Of a stretch of 54,313 bases of DNA, positions 11,867 through 44,994 are shown one piece after another (the stretch's first letter is position 1; the number at the start of each line of letters is the position of its first letter). The stretch comes from Spirochaetaceae bacterium (GTDB taxonomy: Bacteria > Spirochaetota > Spirochaetia > SZUA-6 > Bin103). The stretch is taken from assembly GCA_028821475.1 (NCBI GenBank), contig JAPPGB010000072.1, positions 1-54,313 on the forward strand. Direction: 5' to 3'. Position numbers and translations under genes: made by a program. Under the pieces are notes generated by a model that saw only the letters and a list, made by a program, of their open reading frames with translations, was not told the DNA's origin and searched no databases.

Positions 11867-12747
11867 GCGTCCTGCGCACGCGCGGCGAGCGGCTGTTCGA
11901 TGCCCTCAACGTCACCGTCCTGATTCTCGTGTCGGCGGTGGTGGTGATTCCGTTCTGGCTGCTCCTGGTGGACTCGTTCAGCACCCCCGAGTCAGTATAC
12001 CTGCGCGAGTTCCGCGCCCAGTTGCTGCCGGTGTCCTGGTCGATCACCGCCTACGAAACCGTGCTGCAGAAGTCCGCCATCGGCACCGCCTACGCCAACA
12101 CCCTGTTCCGCACCGTGGTGGGAACAGTGCTGAACACCCTGGTGACGATTGCCGCCGCGTACGCCATCTCCAAGCGCCGGCTGCCGTTCATCCGCGCGTT
12201 CACGTTCCTGGTGGTGTTCACGCTATTCTTCAACGGCGGGCTGATTCCGCGCTTCTTGCTGGTGCGCTCCGTGGGGCTGCTCGATTCGCGCTGGGCGCTG
12301 ATCTGGCCGGTGCTGGTGCAGGCCTACACGCTGCTGATCGCGCGCAACTTCATGTTCTCGATTCCCGACAGCCTGGAGGAGTCCGCCTACATCGACGGCG
12401 CCAACGAGATCACCATCCTGTGGCGCATTATCCTGCCGCTGTCCAAGCCGATCATCGCCACGGTGGCGCTGTGGGGCGCCGTGATGCACTGGAACGCCTG
12501 GTTCGACGCGCTGATCTACGTCACCGACCACACCAAGATCGTGCTGCAACTGCTGCTGCGGCGGGTGCTGCTGGAGGCGCAGATCATGTCGATGACCGAT
12601 GTGGACCTGGAGACCGACACGGCGGTGACCGAGGAGACCGTGAAGGCGGCGCTGATCTTCATCAGCATCGGCCCGATCGTGATCCTGTATCCGTTCGCGC
12701 AGAAGTACTTCATCCGCGGCGTGCTGATCGGCTCGGTCAAGGGCTGA
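11863..12747 (+). CDS. ABC transporter permease, YtcP type
   Basis: 294 residues, second permease of the importer. It starts at TTG 11863, which overlaps the previous stop (TTGA), a typical coupled arrangement. The first membrane helix is VTVLILVSAVVVIPFWLLLV, followed by DSFSTPESVYL. The EAA loop is EESAYIDGANEITILWRII, and the C terminus ends YFIRGVLIGSVKG, as usual for YtcP proteins. With the 9190 and 10907 genes it forms a carbohydrate importer that lacks a dedicated ATPase gene. Confidence 0.9.
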   Translation: MSVLRTRGERLFDALNVTVLILVSAVVVIPFWLLLVDSFSTPESVYLREFRAQLLPVSWSITAYETVLQKSAIGTAYANTLFRTVVGTVLNTLVTIAAAYAISKRRLPFIRAFTFLVVFTLFFNGGLIPRFLLVRSVGLLDSRWALIWPVLVQAYTLLIARNFMFSIPDSLEESAYIDGANEITILWRIILPLSKPIIATVALWGAVMHWNAWFDALIYVTDHTKIVLQLLLRRVLLEAQIMSMTDVDLETDTAVTEETVKAALIFISIGPIVILYPFAQKYFIRGVLIGSVKG

Positions 12748-12797
12748 CGGAAGGCGCCCGCGCCGGCGCGGCGCAACGGCGGTCGCCGACAAGTGCC

Positions 12798-12917
12798 GCG
12801 CGGTAGCGCCGTGCCGATGCCGCCGCAGGTTCGTGCACGCGTTCATGAGCGCATTCAGCAGTCAAGAGAGGCGCGCGGTAGCGCCGTGCCGGTCGCGCCG
12901 CGGTTCCGTGTACGCGC
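12798..12917. repeat. Partial tandem duplication with 75-bp period
   Basis: GCGCGGTAGCGCCGTGCC occurs at 12798-12815 and again at 12873-12890. Each is followed by a similar tail (GCCGCAGGTTCGTGCACGCG and GCCGCGGTTCCGTGTACGCG). The spacer lies between two convergently transcribed genes (permease and sialidase), where a bidirectional terminator would be expected. Confidence 0.7.
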
Positions 12918-12929
12918 CGACGGGCGATC

Positions 12930-14189
12930 TCAACCAAAGAGGTCCTGCTCGGTGGCGCCGGCGCTCAGGTCGGCTTCCGTCAGCATGACGTGGAATATCT
13001 GCCGTTTCTGGTGGTCCAGGAACAGATGCAGGCGGTCGCCGTCGAGCACCAGGTCGGCGTAGGACAACTCCACCCGGCGCCTTGCGTCGCGCGTGGACGG
13101 CGCCGCGCGCGGCACGGTGGTGTCGGCGAGCAGCAGGCGCGGTGGACTCCACGAGCGGCCTTCGTCCCGTGACAGGCACGCCCACAGCTCGCGCCGGTCC
13201 GCTTGGCCGCGCCAGTCTCCGGAGCCCTGGTTGTGGATCAGCGCCACCATCGTGCTGCCGCCGGCGAGCCAGAACACCATCGGCGGCGCGTCCGGGTGGC
13301 GCAGCGCGGTCGGCTCGGGCTCGCTCCAAGTGCGCCCGTCGTCCGCGCTGCGCAGCTCCCACATGCGCCCCGACGGCACGCGCGCGAACATCACCGCGTC
13401 GCTGCCGCCGAGCGACAGAATGGTGCCTTCCAGGGTGCGCTGCCACGGCTGCGTCTGCCAGCCGTGCGGGTGCGGGCCGGGGATCAGCGTCCAACTCGCC
13501 CCCCGGTCCTCGCTGCGCAGGACGAACTGGGTGTCGGTGCGGCCCGGCCGGTCGGTCCGGTTGCGCACGCTGTAGGTGGGCAGCAGCCAGGCGCCCGAGT
13601 CCATCTCGCAGCCGCGCATGTGCCCGACGCCGCAGTAGCCCGAGCTGTTGACCGGGTCGAGGATCTCCACCTCGCTCCAGGTGTGGCCGTCGTCGTCGGA
13701 GCGGCGCACGCCGATGCCGCCGTCGTGCGGCGGCAGGAACAGCTCCGGCGTCGGCTCGGTGCCGAAGGCGACGATCCGCGTGCCGCCGCGCGCCACCATC
13801 GGGTTGAAGCCGTGCTGGTTGTAGGGCACCTCCCACGGGTGGGTCGGGCCCTGCCAGGTGGCGCCGCCGTCGCCGGAGCGGTAGGCGAGCAGCTCGTTGA
13901 TCTTGTCGTGGTTGTTGATCATGTGCCCGGCCCCCGACTGGGTAATCGCCAGCAGGTCGCCGCCCGGCGTCTTCAGGGCGCGCACCGGCTCGCTCATGTC
14001 GTTCGGCGGCGGGAACGCGTGCAGCCGGCGCACGTCCAGGCGGTCCGAGGCGATGATGCCCAGGTCGGGGAGGTGGCGGTAGCCGGTCGGCGGTTTCGCC
14101 ACCTCGAGCGCGCCGCCGGCCAGCGGGATGCGCTCCTCCTGCTCCAGCAGTACCCCGTCCGGCGGGGGTTGATGGACGTGTGGAATCAT
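12930..14189 (-). CDS. Sialidase-like BNR-repeat (exo-alpha-sialidase family) protein
   Basis: 419 residues forming a six-bladed propeller, judged by five Asp-box-like motifs: SGDGGATW, SDDDGHTW, SEDRGASW, SADDGRTW and SRDEGRSW. No signal peptide is present, so it would be cytoplasmic or part of a non-secreted pathway. True GH33 sialidases carry an arginine triad, which I cannot confirm; related BNR proteins are often of unknown glycosidase or lyase activity. ATG 14189 follows GGCGG weakly. It lies convergent to the sugar importer and may handle the same substrate. Confidence 0.8.
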   Translation of the reverse strand: MIPHVHQPPPDGVLLEQEERIPLAGGALEVAKPPTGYRHLPDLGIIASDRLDVRRLHAFPPPNDMSEPVRALKTPGGDLLAITQSGAGHMINNHDKINELLAYRSGDGGATWQGPTHPWEVPYNQHGFNPMVARGGTRIVAFGTEPTPELFLPPHDGGIGVRRSDDDGHTWSEVEILDPVNSSGYCGVGHMRGCEMDSGAWLLPTYSVRNRTDRPGRTDTQFVLRSEDRGASWTLIPGPHPHGWQTQPWQRTLEGTILSLGGSDAVMFARVPSGRMWELRSADDGRTWSEPEPTALRHPDAPPMVFWLAGGSTMVALIHNQGSGDWRGQADRRELWACLSRDEGRSWSPPRLLLADTTVPRAAPSTRDARRRVELSYADLVLDGDRLHLFLDHQKRQIFHVMLTEADLSAGATEQDLFG

Positions 14190-39626: not shown

Positions 39627-40020
39627 CTACAAAATCAACGGGAGAGCCGCTGATTTTCTGCTAAATTCAACGGATATGCCGACGATTATGGGGTGGGCAC
39701 GCGCCGCGGTCAGTACCTGAGGAAGATCTTGCTGGCCTCGCAGGTGGCGAGAAGGTCGGCGTACACCTCGCGCCACATGCACAGCATCAACGCGGCCTCC
39801 ACAGGGATCTGCGCCGGCACCACGCACTGCGGGGAAGTCCTGCAGCACCAGCATGCCCTCCCACAGCTCGTGCTCGGAAGCCCCCGGCACCAGTTGCAGG
39901 ATTTCCGCCTCGGCGGCGTTCTGCGGCCCGGCGCCGCGGCGGTGGTTGCGCCTCGCCGCGCCGTTGGTACAGACTCCCTCACATCCGCCGCCTTCGGGCG
40001 AGGATTACCCCTCTTGTGAC
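39627..40020. pseudogene. 394-base spacer holding a frameshifted gene remnant (minus strand)
   Basis: Near 39627-39690 AT-rich DNA precedes the DUF4143 gene; CCGTTGAATTT and CCGTTGATTTT form a direct repeat that could be an operator. From about 39920 to 39718 on the minus strand two frames join into protein-like sequence: AEILQLVPGASEHELWEGML then, after a shift near 39840, CVVPAQIPVEAALMLCMWRE and LLATCEASKIFLRY before a stop. I do not recognise the family; it looks like the decayed end of a gene. Confidence 0.4.
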
Positions 40021-40341
40021 ATGGAGCAGCGGCTGATGGCGAGCCCCACCGACCTTGCAGCGCTCCGGCAGAAGCTGCTGGTGCTGTACGCGGCCAATTC
40101 CAGCCCCGACACCGAGGTGGTCGCCTGGTCACTGTACGACGGTGCCAGCGACGAGACCTACGAGGCCGCCGGCGAGGCGGTACCGCCTTACGCCACCGTC
40201 CTTGATGCGATGCGCGACGGCTGGCGGGTGATCAAGTATCCCGACCTGCGGCCGCCGAGTCCCGGCCAGGAGTACGACCTCTCCTACCTGGAATTCGAAT
40301 TCGTATTGGAAAAACTGGAGGCGATCGATGGCAAGCGGTAA
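40021..40341 (+). CDS. Small hypothetical protein coupled to a PhyH oxygenase
   Basis: 106 residues, hydrophilic, acidic, without signal or membrane segment. Recognisable stretches are LAALRQKLLVLYAAN, WSLYDGASDETYEAAGEAVP and YDLSYLEFEFVLEKLE. I do not recognise a family. ATG 40021 has no strong Shine-Dalgarno; ATG 40036 is possible. Its last 14 bases overlap the start of the PhyH gene, so the two are translated together and the protein may assist that enzyme. Confidence 0.65.
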   Translation: MEQRLMASPTDLAALRQKLLVLYAANSSPDTEVVAWSLYDGASDETYEAAGEAVPPYATVLDAMRDGWRVIKYPDLRPPSPGQEYDLSYLEFEFVLEKLEAIDGKR

Positions 40342-41200
40342 CGGCGGTAACGGCACTGCCCCCGACCTGCGGCTGACCAGCCGCGACATGGCGCGCTTCG
40401 TACGCGACGGCTTCCTGCGCTTCGACCACCTGGTGCCGCGCGACCTGTGCGCGGCGGCGATGGCCGAGATCGAATCGGGCCGCCACATGCGCGACCGCGG
40501 CCAGGGCGGCGCACCGTTCCGCGACATCTGGGCGGAGCCCGGCTCGGCGCTTGGACAGGCGTTCCGGCTGCCGCGGGTGGCGGCGATCATCCACAGCCTG
40601 GTGGGCCCGGACCCGCGCTACGACCACCATGCCGCGCACCTGACCCCGGCGCACACGCGCAAGGGCGCCAATCTGCACCAGGACGCCGAGTATGACGTGC
40701 GGCGCAACCACTTCGACATCCAGATCTCGTTCTTCCCGGAGGACACGCCGGCCGAGTCGGGCGGCACGCTGTTCCTGCCGGGCAGCCAGTTCCGGCGCGT
40801 GTACGAGTCCACCACCCGCCGCTACCAGGACGTGCTCGGCCAGGTGCAGGCGGTGTGTGACGCCGGCGCCATGTTCTTCTGGCACACCAACGTGTGGCAC
40901 GCGGCGCGCAGCAACCGGACCGGCCGAGACCGCTACATGTTCAAGCTGCGCCTCAACCCGACCGTGCGCCAGCAGCGGCTGTGGAACACCGCCGACCTCG
41001 ACGACCCGGACACCCGCACCGACGTCGCGAAGATCCTCAGCGAGAGGATCCCGTGGCACGGCCAGCGCCACCGCATCGAGGTGATGAACCGCATCCGCCT
41101 GTGGCGCTACCTGGCCGGCGACCCCGACTTCGACGTCGCCCTCTGGTGGACGCGCATCGAGAACACCCCGGAAACCGTCTACCGCACCCAGCTCGCCTGA
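40328..41200 (+). CDS. Phytanoyl-CoA dioxygenase (PhyH) family protein
   Basis: 290 residues. Iron ligands: His117-x-Asp119 in ANLHQDAEYD and distal His191 in NVWHAARSNRTGRDRYM. The segment AESGGTLFLPGSQ is the usual strand before the second half of the barrel. It overlaps the upstream small gene by 14 bases, with GGAGG (40318-40322) serving as its Shine-Dalgarno. The C-terminal 60 residues (IRLWRYLAGDPDFDVALWW) form an extra helical tail. Substrate unknown. Confidence 0.88.
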   Translation: MASGNGGNGTAPDLRLTSRDMARFVRDGFLRFDHLVPRDLCAAAMAEIESGRHMRDRGQGGAPFRDIWAEPGSALGQAFRLPRVAAIIHSLVGPDPRYDHHAAHLTPAHTRKGANLHQDAEYDVRRNHFDIQISFFPEDTPAESGGTLFLPGSQFRRVYESTTRRYQDVLGQVQAVCDAGAMFFWHTNVWHAARSNRTGRDRYMFKLRLNPTVRQQRLWNTADLDDPDTRTDVAKILSERIPWHGQRHRIEVMNRIRLWRYLAGDPDFDVALWWTRIENTPETVYRTQLA

Positions 41201-41212
41201 ATCCCTCCGCGG

Positions 41213-42451
41213 CTACGGGAGTGCGCGGACCGTGCAGTGCACCCAGTGGGTGTCGACGCGGAACTCGGGGTCGCCCTGGCCGGCAGCGCGCAGCTCGCGC
41301 CGGGCCGCGGGGATGCCGAAGCCGTAGCGCTGCACCAGGCCGAGCACGCGCATCGCTTCCGCCAGCGTCGGGTTGCGGTAATCGATTACGCCCGGCCGCC
41401 CGAAGTTCTCCGGCGTGAGCGCACCGTACGGGCCGCCCGGACTATTGATCTCGATCCGGTCATCGAACCAGTACACGTGCACCGGCGCGTTGGTGCCGTC
41501 GTAGGTGCGGTGCATCACCGCATTGCGCACGAGCTGCTGCAGCGCACCGAGCGGATAGGTCGACCGGCGCGTCTCGGTGGGGGCAGAAATGAACTCCACC
41601 GCGGTGCGGTTGTGCGCTATCAGCTTGTCGTCCACCCGGCGAACCAAGTCGGCCACCGGCCCTTCGCAGCGCGCCTCGTCCAGCACCTCGCCGCCCCACT
41701 CCCGGCCGGCGATGCGCAGAAACTGCACGTAAGCCCCCGGCAGGAAGTGCTGCGGCTGCCGGCCCAGGACCAGCATGCCGGCCACGCTCGGCACCGGCTC
41801 GTCCACCGAGACGATCATCTTCGCGGCGGCCAGGCGTTCCTCCTCGGTGCGGTCGTTCGCGGCCAGCGTCTCGGCGTCGACCGCGGCCGGCAGGTACTCG
41901 TCCATGAAGCGCCCCACCCGCAGGTCGTCGACCGTGGCCGTCCGGACTGCGGAGGAGTCGTAGTGCGAATCCCGGTACCGGCGCCGCTCGTTCAGGATCC
42001 GCTCATCCTGTGCACTGGCAATCGCGCGGCGCGGACCGACGCGAATCCAGGTGCGCCCCCGGCAGCGTACGGGCGGCGAGTCGGAGGGCCGCACGGTTAC
42101 CACCGCCACCGCCAGGCCGCCGAGCACGTGCTTTGCGACGGTCAGGGTCGGCGGCGGTACGATGTTGCCGTCGGTCTTGATATCGGAGAGCTGCAGCAGA
42201 AGCTGGTCGGTGATGTCCAGCCCGGTGGGATCGCCGGCGTCATCCGCGCCGACGAACACCACCCCCGCACGCCGGTGGTCCGGCAGGTCGTTGGCGAACG
42301 CGCACACCGCCTCCCGAATGCGCGCCGCGCTGTCGCCGCGCAGCGACTCCTTGCGCTCGACCAGGTCGGACTCCAGGTCCGCCATCATTGCTTCCAGTTC
42401 GCGATCCGAGTATCCCTCGGACATTCGTACCGTGTTCCCGTTGCTAGTCAT
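41213..42451 (-). CDS. AlbA_2 (Schlafen-like) ATP-binding protein with GHKL-type C terminus
   Basis: 412 residues. Residues about 20-140 form an AlbA_2/Schlafen AAA_4-type domain (ESDLVERKESLRGD, FVGADDAGDPTGL); the C terminus has a HATPase_c_4-like region (LVRNAVMHRTYDG, EINSPGGPYG, QRYGFGIP). Such proteins are widely annotated as transcriptional regulators or helicase-like, and some are linked to phage defence. ATG 42451 overlaps the stop of the upstream Cox11-like gene (ATGACTAG), so it is translated after it. GTG 42454 is an alternative. Confidence 0.85.
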   Translation of the reverse strand: MTSNGNTVRMSEGYSDRELEAMMADLESDLVERKESLRGDSAARIREAVCAFANDLPDHRRAGVVFVGADDAGDPTGLDITDQLLLQLSDIKTDGNIVPPPTLTVAKHVLGGLAVAVVTVRPSDSPPVRCRGRTWIRVGPRRAIASAQDERILNERRRYRDSHYDSSAVRTATVDDLRVGRFMDEYLPAAVDAETLAANDRTEEERLAAAKMIVSVDEPVPSVAGMLVLGRQPQHFLPGAYVQFLRIAGREWGGEVLDEARCEGPVADLVRRVDDKLIAHNRTAVEFISAPTETRRSTYPLGALQQLVRNAVMHRTYDGTNAPVHVYWFDDRIEINSPGGPYGALTPENFGRPGVIDYRNPTLAEAMRVLGLVQRYGFGIPAARRELRAAGQGDPEFRVDTHWVHCTVRALP

Positions 42452-43343
42452 CACGCGCCTCGGCAGGGCGGCGGTCCTGGAACTGCGCCAGCGGGTAGTA
42501 CTCGTACACCATGGCGATTTCGCCGATATCGGGCGGAATGTCCCAGCCGAGGCGTATGGCTACCGGCAGCTCGCGCTCCTCCCCCGGTGCGTAGGTGTCC
42601 TCGAAGAAGCAGAAACACTGCAGCAGCTCGGTGTGCAGGAACGCCACCGGCGGCTCGAACAGGTGTCCCGCCTTGGCCTTGACGGTGCCTTCGGAGAGGT
42701 TGCGCGCGCGGAACACCGCCGCACCGGTCTCGCCCGGCTTCAGCATGATGCTCTCCGGCTCCACGCTGAACTCGAACGGGAGCTCCTCGCGCACCTCGGC
42801 GCGGAAGCGGATCGTGAAGCCCACCGCCCAGTCCAGGAACACCTTCCAGTGCTCCCCCTCCCGCACCAGCTCCACCCGCTGCGAGAACTCGATCACCGGC
42901 AGCGTGCCCGCCTCTCCGCGGCGGCGCAACTCCGCGCGGCGCTCCTCCACCGTGCTGCCGGCGGCGGCGCCCTCGCCGTACAGCAGGCCGCGCAACTCCG
43001 GATGGTTGGCGTTCGGCACGGTCCCGTGGGCGGTCACCACGCCGGCGTCACCCTGCAGGTCGCTGTCGGTTTCGCGTATCTCGATGAACTCGCCGAGCTC
43101 CACGATCAGTTCCTGGAACTCGGCCGGGAACTGCGGATGGCCTGCCAGGTGCTGCTCCAGGGTGCGCCAGCGCCGGTCCTCCGCCGACGCCAGCTCGTAC
43201 ACCACCGCCGCGTCGTTGACATAGCGCGCGTGCAGCAGGCGGGTCGCCACCTGCTCCGGCGACGGCGTTCGCACCGTCAGGAACGCCGCGCCGCCGGCCG
43301 CCAGTACGGCAGCCGCTGCCACTATCGGGAGCAGTCGTTTCAC
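42444..43343 (-). CDS. Membrane-anchored protein with Cox11/CtaG-like copper-chaperone domain
   Basis: 299 residues. An N-terminal helix (LLPIVAAAAVLAAGGAAFLT) anchors an extracytoplasmic protein. Residues about 180-290 resemble Cox11/CtaG: LPFEFSVEPESIMLKPGE, VFRARNLSEGTV and, decisively, LLQCFCFFEDTYAPGEE, matching the copper-binding C-F-C-F-x-E-x-x-x-x-P-G-E motif of Cox11. The N-terminal 150 residues are not in Cox11 and resemble a lipoprotein-like stress domain. No cytochrome oxidase genes lie nearby. GTG 43343 is chosen so that the membrane helix is N-terminal. The stop overlaps the AlbA_2 gene start. Confidence 0.72.
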   Translation of the reverse strand: MKRLLPIVAAAAVLAAGGAAFLTVRTPSPEQVATRLLHARYVNDAAVVYELASAEDRRWRTLEQHLAGHPQFPAEFQELIVELGEFIEIRETDSDLQGDAGVVTAHGTVPNANHPELRGLLYGEGAAAGSTVEERRAELRRRGEAGTLPVIEFSQRVELVREGEHWKVFLDWAVGFTIRFRAEVREELPFEFSVEPESIMLKPGETGAAVFRARNLSEGTVKAKAGHLFEPPVAFLHTELLQCFCFFEDTYAPGEERELPVAIRLGWDIPPDIGEIAMVYEYYPLAQFQDRRPAEARDD

Positions 43344-43400
43344 TCCGCATCCAATAATACGCCATCCTTCCGCCCTGCGTAGCGGGCGGTCGGAGGCCCT

Positions 43401-43429
43401 TTGACAAGTGTTACCATGCAAGGTATCCT
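43401..43429 (+). promoter_or_regulatory. Consensus promoter, leaderless, of the DUF4160 gene
   Basis: TTGACA (43401-43406), 17 bases, TATCCT (43424-43429), then 5 bases to GTG 43435. It is the best promoter in the window and fixes the start codon of the small gene. Confidence 0.6.
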
Positions 43430-43434
43430 TTCTT

Positions 43435-43629
43435 GTGGCGCGGATTCGGCGCGGCGGCTACATTTTTGTCACCTGGGTTTCCGACCACGCGCCGCGTCAT
43501 GTGCATGTCTATCGCGATGGACGACTGGCGGTAAAGTGGGACCTGGAGAACAGGGTAGCGATGAAGGGCAAGGCGACTCGGCGGATTCTGGATCTGATTG
43601 AGGAACTGCAGCGTGAGGGTGAGTTGTGA
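43435..43629 (+). CDS. DUF4160 domain protein
   Basis: 64 residues. YIFVTWVSDHAPRHVHVYRD followed by AVKWDLENR is the DUF4160 signature (R-H-V-H-V-Y and K-W-D-L-E). GTG 43435 is set by the promoter position. The stop overlaps the next gene's GTG (GTGA), a coupled pair. DUF4160 genes are commonly adjacent to DUF2442 genes; a toxin-antitoxin role has been proposed in annotation but I know of no firm mechanism. Confidence 0.85.
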   Translation: MARIRRGGYIFVTWVSDHAPRHVHVYRDGRLAVKWDLENRVAMKGKATRRILDLIEELQREGEL

Positions 43630-44135
43630 AGATTCGTACGGTGACTTTCAACAACCACAAGAAGTCGTTCGAGGTCGCGACGGACTCGGAGTCCTTTCTG
43701 TTCCCGTACGTCAAGACCGACCCCGCTCCCGCGCCCGGAGACCTCGTGGTCCAGGCCCGCGTTGACGACGAACTGGCTCAGGAGGCATTCGTCTTCACCG
43801 TGAAATCCGGGCGAGAGACCACGGTCCACATCGAGCAGGTTCTGGAATTCAACCAGGATCCGAGCTACCTGCGCGATCTGTTGCTGTACAAGCTCACGCT
43901 CGAGGCGCAGCGTAGAGTGACCGCGACGGCCGTCTCGAAGCGGGAAATCATCCGGCGACTCGGAACCTCGCCAGCTCAACTCTATCGATTGCTGGATCAG
44001 ACCAACTACCGCAAGTCCGTTGATCAGGTACTGCGCCTCCTTCACGTCCTGGAGTGCGATGTCGACGTCGTCGTGCGCGACAAGGCGCGCAAGGCATCCG
44101 CGGACGCCCGCACGATCCCTGCGCGCGTTCGTTGA
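43626..44135 (+). CDS. DUF2442-like protein with C-terminal helix-turn-helix
   Basis: 169 residues. The N-terminal 75 residues (VTFNNHKKSFEVATDSESFL, then PYVKTDPAPAPGD) resemble DUF2442, though weakly. The C-terminal part is an HTH: VSKREIIRRLGTSPAQLYRL followed by YRKSVDQVLRLLHVL, similar to XRE-type DNA-binding domains. GTG 43626 overlaps the DUF4160 stop. It is a likely autoregulator of the pair. A DUF2442 domain fused to HTH would be the larger antitoxin-like partner. Confidence 0.72.
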   Translation: MKIRTVTFNNHKKSFEVATDSESFLFPYVKTDPAPAPGDLVVQARVDDELAQEAFVFTVKSGRETTVHIEQVLEFNQDPSYLRDLLLYKLTLEAQRRVTATAVSKREIIRRLGTSPAQLYRLLDQTNYRKSVDQVLRLLHVLECDVDVVVRDKARKASADARTIPARVR

Positions 44136-44161
44136 CGGCGGAATTTGCCGGCTGCTACATT
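44132..44161 (+). promoter_or_regulatory. Leaderless promoter of the pentonate operon
   Basis: TTGACG (44132-44137), 18 bases, TACATT (44156-44161) preceded by TG, then 8 bases to ATG 44170 with no Shine-Dalgarno. The -35 overlaps the stop of the upstream HTH gene. Confidence 0.58.
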
Positions 44162-44169
44162 CGCGGGCG

Positions 44170-44994
44170 ATGTTACTGTACCGCACGCAGCGCGGCGTCG
44201 TGGCCGCCGCCGAAGACCGATTCGTACTGCTGGCCGAGGGTTGGGACACCGTGGTCGGGCCGCCCGGCCTGCCTGACAGGATCGCCGCGCTGACGGCGCA
44301 CGGAACGGCGCTCGATGCGTTCGATCCCGCCGATGCCCTGGTGCCGCTGGTGTCGCAGGAGGTGTGGGCAGCCGGGGTCACCTACTACCGCAGCCGCGAC
44401 GCGCGCATGGCGGAGTCGGAGCAGGCCGGCGGCGACAGCTTCTACGACCGCGTGTACAGCGCGCCGCGCCCGGAGCTGTTCTTCAAGGGCAGCGCGCGCA
44501 CGGCGGTGGGCAGCGGCGGGCAGATCGCCATCCGTTCCGACGCCGGCTGGAACGTACCGGAACCGGAGCTGGTGCTGCTCGCCGACGCGAGCGGTGCGCT
44601 GATCGGCTGCACCATCGGCAATGACGTCAGCTCGCGCGACATCGAGGGCGAGAATCCGCTCTACCTGCCGCAGGCCAAGGTGTACGACGCCAGTTGCGCC
44701 CTCGGACCGGCGCTGCTGGTGGGCGCCGACCCGCTGCCGGCGAGCACCGAGATCAGCCTGCAGATCAGCCGCGCCGGGGCGGTGGTGTTCACCGGCAGCA
44801 CCACCCTCGCCGAGCTCAAGCGCACGCCGGAGGAGCTGCTCGGCTACCTGTACCGCGACAACAGCTTCCCGCACGGCTGCTACTTGATGACCGGCACCGG
44901 CATCGTGCCCCCGGACGGCTTCACCCTCGCCTCCGGCGACACGGTGGACATTACCATCCCCGCGATCGGCACCCTCACCAACGAGGTCCGCTGA
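44170..44994 (+). CDS. FAH-family enzyme, probable 2-keto-3-deoxy-pentonate dehydratase
   Basis: 274 residues. The metal site EPELVLLADASG (E-x-E) and NDVSSRDIEGENPLYLPQAK fit the KdaD/XylX-like branch that dehydrates 2-keto-3-deoxy sugar acids; GTGIVPPDGFTLASGD closes the fold. It directly abuts the YjhG-type dehydratase gene (stop at 44994, ATG at 44995), which makes the substrate. Together they form steps two and three of the Weimberg (oxidative pentose) route. A leaderless promoter precedes it. Confidence 0.85.
   Translation: MLLYRTQRGVVAAAEDRFVLLAEGWDTVVGPPGLPDRIAALTAHGTALDAFDPADALVPLVSQEVWAAGVTYYRSRDARMAESEQAGGDSFYDRVYSAPRPELFFKGSARTAVGSGGQIAIRSDAGWNVPEPELVLLADASGALIGCTIGNDVSSRDIEGENPLYLPQAKVYDASCALGPALLVGADPLPASTEISLQISRAGAVVFTGSTTLAELKRTPEELLGYLYRDNSFPHGCYLMTGTGIVPPDGFTLASGDTVDITIPAIGTLTNEVR

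Follow-up and report, generated by a model that had tools for sequence, protein, structure and literature searches.

A spirochaete Cox11-domain protein with an additional N-terminal domain, probably the CuB insertion factor for its family's sole aa3-type oxidase

The window, a stretch of 54,313 nucleotides from a Spirochaetaceae bacterium, encodes a 299-residue protein with a GTG start (42444..43343, minus strand). The gene was called from its open reading frame and translation, and homologs with the same architecture are present in three other genomes of the family (G001, G002, and G003). From the N terminus, the protein has a putative membrane anchor (residues 4-24; 43272..43334, minus), judged by eye from hydrophobicity and kept in 4 homologs; an extra domain that lacks cysteine (residues 27-174; 42822..43265, minus); and a CtaG/Cox11 domain (residues 175-290; 42474..42821, minus), which includes a CFCF motif that is predicted to bind copper (residues 243-246; 42606..42617, minus). 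A Lys-Arg pair lies ahead of the anchor and is predicted to be inside, with the remainder of the fusion predicted to be periplasmic. The stop codon of the fusion gene (hereafter cox11) is overlapped by a gene for an AlbA_2 (Schlafen)/HATPase_c_4 protein, which we identified with Pfam (41213..42454, minus). Among the neighboring genes that we scanned with Pfam, there was no cox gene beside the fusion.

The preliminary description of this locus had proposed that the C terminus is a Cox11 domain, and several comparisons agree with this. The protein contains the Cox11 signature LLQCFCFFEDTYAPGEE. The PF04442 (CtaG_Cox11) profile matches residues 175-283 (E = 6e-18; 65.7 bits, with a cut-off of 25 bits), and it also matches the proteins from all four family members. 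The structurally characterized CtaG from S. meliloti (PDB 1so9) is matched as well, with E = 1e-11 for the single sequence and E = 5e-20 for a profile of four homologs. Judged from these E values, both matches are far above chance. In contrast, the score against the canonical Cox11 equivalog (NCBIfam NF003465) is just 78.4 bits, which is under the cut-off of 162 bits. By these profile comparisons, the fusion is a member of the Cox11 domain family PF04442 that lies outside of the canonical equivalog. Homology to 1so9 implies an immunoglobulin-like fold for the head; our own model of the head is of low confidence (pLDDT of 32-59 per ten-residue block). With the full-length model (pLDDT 49.8) as the query, Foldseek found nothing meaningful.

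The preliminary description also stated that the N-terminal ~150 residues are not part of Cox11, and indeed, residues 27-174 had no match in Pfam, NCBIfam, or the sequences in PDB, even with profile queries. We did not find a second copy of this extra domain in the same genome, and a tblastn search of plasmids found Cox11 heads only, with the extra domain absent. In the open-licence literature, we found no description of a Cox11 fusion with this architecture. An AlphaFold2 model of residues 27-174 alone has moderate confidence (pLDDT 74.8) and contains, in order, helices, a strand hairpin, two helices, and a strand hairpin. The structural neighbors of this model are mostly NTF2-like or cystatin-like (Z of 5-7, where Z below 8 is not conclusive), which suggests that the domain is likely to have an NTF2/cystatin-like α+β fold. 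In none of the four species does the extra domain contain a cysteine, and it has no conserved methionine or histidine; it is therefore unlikely to be a copper-binding domain. NTF2-like domains often form pairs, which makes it most economical to guess that the extra domain holds a Cox11 dimer together or docks the dimer to COX1.

The organism is a spirochaete of the sponge-symbiont type. Among public sequences, its nearest relative, at 90% identity, is from Spirochaetaceae bacterium bin103 (MPNH01000012), a sister species that was the only match when we scanned contigs with the fusion. The sister was binned from a metagenome of the sponge Aplysina aerophoba (PMC5649159). Our sample of the family comprises four genomes from the genome collection (G000-G003), and all four of their Cox11 proteins share the architecture of anchor, extra domain, and Cox11 head. 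The extra domain is 38-42% identical to those of the two more distant family members. Compared to the sister species, dN/dS is about 0.14 in the extra domain and also about 0.14 in the Cox11 head, so both domains are under purifying selection. Given the shared architecture, the conservation of the extra domain, and the low dN/dS, we conclude that the fusion is an old and selected feature of the family and not an assembly accident.

Each of the four genomes encodes exactly one PF04442 protein (the Cox11 fusion) and exactly one PF00115 protein (COX1); as these genomes represent a single lineage, this co-occurrence reflects one evolutionary event. In the window's own genome, the only haem-copper oxidase subunit I is on another contig (contig 79) and has the CuB-ligand motifs: it contains HPEVY, AHHMF, and HDTYYVIGHFH (of the form HDTYYVxGHFH), which are established in haem-copper oxidases as the motifs that hold CuB and the haems. 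Its nearest solved relatives are COX1 subunits of aa3 oxidases, so we describe it as aa3-like. The same cluster encodes a cupredoxin-like lipoprotein, COX3, a COX4-type small subunit (COX4_pro), a small membrane protein with a CAVCFG motif, and COX2, with the CuA motif CAQLCGLGHYRM (of the form CAQLCGxGHxxM); Cox11 is not included. Haem A synthase (CtaA) is encoded in three of the four species, and in G001 its gene is directly behind COX2. The preliminary description was correct that no cytochrome oxidase genes are near the fusion, but it had also called the fusion an orphan. A search for oxidase genes elsewhere in the genome rejects this, as COX1, COX2, COX3, COX4, and CtaA are all encoded on other contigs.

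In all four species, the fusion gene lies outside of the cox cluster. It is on a different contig from the cluster except in G003, where COX1 and the fusion are about 680 kb apart on a single 1.65-Mb contig. This rules out a mis-binned cox contig, at least for G003. We found no match to COX15/CtaA in G003 (locus L018; 97% complete) despite the presence of COX1 and COX2: either the gene was missed or this oxidase uses another haem.

Two other proteins of the cox cluster could be relevant to electron transfer or copper. First, a putative lipoprotein, encoded directly before COX1, combines a cupredoxin-like segment with a carboxypeptidase-regulatory-like C terminus (L016:11125-12105, minus; L018:8893-9783, plus; L019:2516-3349, plus); it is a possible electron donor or copper carrier. 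Second, the small predicted membrane protein has a signal-like start and CAVCFG before its single transmembrane helix, and its gene adjoins COX2 in three family members (L016:7781-8128, minus; L017:8732-9001, minus; L018, within 12202-13017, plus). It could be a factor that provides thiols or copper for CuA. Also near the cox cluster is a gene for a SIR2-like protein (L016:5903-6892, minus), whose PADLOC match (E = 7e-57) is to the N-terminal region of the defence protein Dsr1.

To place Cox11 within the phylum, we considered 393 sampled genomes. COX1-type proteins were found in 77 of these, and an acceptable Cox11 was found only in the window's own genome, so Cox11 seems to be special to this family's oxidase. 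(A match in one other genome, G038, was below the cut-off and had four internal stops, so we treated it as a chance hit.) Perhaps the family acquired its Cox11 by transfer. Within the four family genomes, there was no Sco above the cut-off (the weak matches all had E of 0.006 or worse and fell below it), PCuAC was not found, and no Caa3_CtaG was above the cut-off. This leaves the fusion as the family's only recognized CuB insertion factor.

Most probably, then, the fusion is no orphan but a variant component of a known machine. We put the probability at roughly 80% that it is a structurally variant Cox11 that carries out ordinary CuB insertion into the family's sole aa3-type oxidase. Specifically, we propose that it is a membrane-anchored, periplasm-facing Cu(I) chaperone of the Cox11 type, which would load CuB of the organism's only haem-copper oxidase. 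Its C-terminal domain would bear the copper site at CFCF. The NTF2-like domain, between the anchor and the head, would most likely be a membrane-proximal spacer, a dimerization module, or a docking module, and would position the copper heads over COX1. The intact CFCF head, the single pairing of PF04442 with PF00115 in 4/4 family members, the aa3-like COX1 with its CuB motifs, the failure of our searches to recover another known CuB factor in the family, and the purifying selection on both domains favor this role for the fusion. Also, in α-proteobacteria, the CuB site of aa3 oxidases cannot be formed without Cox11, a requirement that added copper does not bypass (PMC12617631, PMC9232578). Several observations point the other way: the gene's location outside of the cox cluster in all four species, the lack of a third cysteine (discussed below), and the score of 78 bits against the equivalog cut-off of 162. 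Furthermore, about 75 other genomes in the phylum encode COX1-type proteins but no Cox11, so not all spirochaete haem-copper oxidases need Cox11.

In canonical Cox11, as seen in our alignment with five canonical proteins, a third cysteine lies within a LYxxFCxxTG segment just outside the membrane. This segment is absent from all four of the spirochaete fusions, whose sole cysteines are the two of CFCF; the CFCF motif itself is invariant across the fusions and the five canonical sequences. The extra domain takes the position of the short LYxxFCxxTG linker of canonical Cox11. In human COX11, the third cysteine takes part in passing copper on to COX1, and the dimer has its Cu(I)-thiolate centers oriented toward the membrane (PMC9232578). 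The weakest points of our proposal are the transfer of copper without a third cysteine and the building of CuA without Sco or PCuAC. As the third cysteine is held to help hand copper to COX1, a conserved natural Cox11 lacking it, from genomes where no other CuB factor is recognizable, would allow its necessity to be tested. It would also show that copper heads can be placed at the membrane in an alternative way. We speculate that the oxidase of these spirochaetes acquires its copper sites without Sco, PCuAC, or the third cysteine of Cox11, with the NTF2-like domain handling the dimerization and positioning of Cox11 and the CAVCFG protein possibly supplying the missing thiols; this fuller scenario is less likely than not.

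The lack of Sco and PCuAC in a family whose COX2 keeps its CuA motif raises the question of whether the fusion might serve both sites, loading CuA in COX2 in addition to CuB in COX1. Human COX11 does interact with COX2 (PMC9232578). However, the extra domain, with no cysteine and no conserved methionine or histidine, offers no obvious second copper site, and the CAVCFG protein is another candidate for CuA, so we consider a dual role to be unlikely.

It is less likely still that the fusion was repurposed as a copper sensor or as a chaperone that serves something other than cytochrome oxidase, as the preliminary description had suggested. A gene outside of the cox cluster, whose product lacks the third cysteine and has gained a domain, could be viewed as a sign of such a change. 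But every genome with the fusion has a single PF00115 enzyme, and we found no alternative CuB factor for it, which argues against another target. Nor did we see a conserved regulator or signaling partner beside the fusion in the family's loci. The neighbor of cox11 in G003 is a PhyH gene, and in G001 it is what we take to be a transhydrogenase (pntAB-like) gene set, recognized by eye from the translation.

The preliminary description also linked the fusion to the adjacent AlbA_2-type ATPase by translational coupling. The overlap between the two genes is present, but a conserved link is ruled out by synteny with the sister species (L015), in which the AlbA_2 gene is missing and cox11 runs up to a convergent PhyH gene. 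The flanks align on both sides at 84-91% identity (39936-41214 of the window to 12204-10932 of L015, and 42454-44994 to 10890-8330). Using tblastn, we found nothing similar to the AlbA_2 protein around cox11 in the sister or in the two remaining species (L015, L020, L021, and L022; for G001, the contig covers only 5.2 kb). The overlap is specific to the window's species, where the gene is an insertion, and despite the overlapping stop and start codons, it is highly improbable that the fusion and the ATPase form a functional operon. In PADLOC, the AlbA_2/HATPase_c_4 gene weakly matches models associated with SIR2-pAgo (E = 4e-12).

The fusion and its oxidase can be compared to three known systems. 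The modeled extra domain resembles the NTF2-like/cystatin-like fold (CaMKII hub, NTF2, and SnoaL/ketosteroid isomerase-like proteins) in having helices followed by strand hairpins, but it has no sequence-level match to these proteins and it has additional helices between its two hairpins. The spirochaete cox cluster encodes the same core subunits of the oxidase as the canonical cox operon of α-proteobacteria (such as L023 and L024). In those operons, ctaG sits between the oxidase genes, while in the spirochaetes, Cox11 is outside of the cluster and our search of the genome gave no Sco. Finally, relative to canonical Cox11, the fusion has ~145 additional residues that separate the anchor from the head, it lacks LYxxFCxxTG and hence the third cysteine, its gene is outside of the cox cluster, and it is only 20-27% identical to the five canonical proteins that we aligned. 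What it has in common with Cox11/CtaG (as in S. meliloti CtaG, PDB 1so9/1sp0) is the membrane anchor, the head domain, the CFCF motif, the PGEE segment, and its co-occurrence with an aa3-type oxidase.
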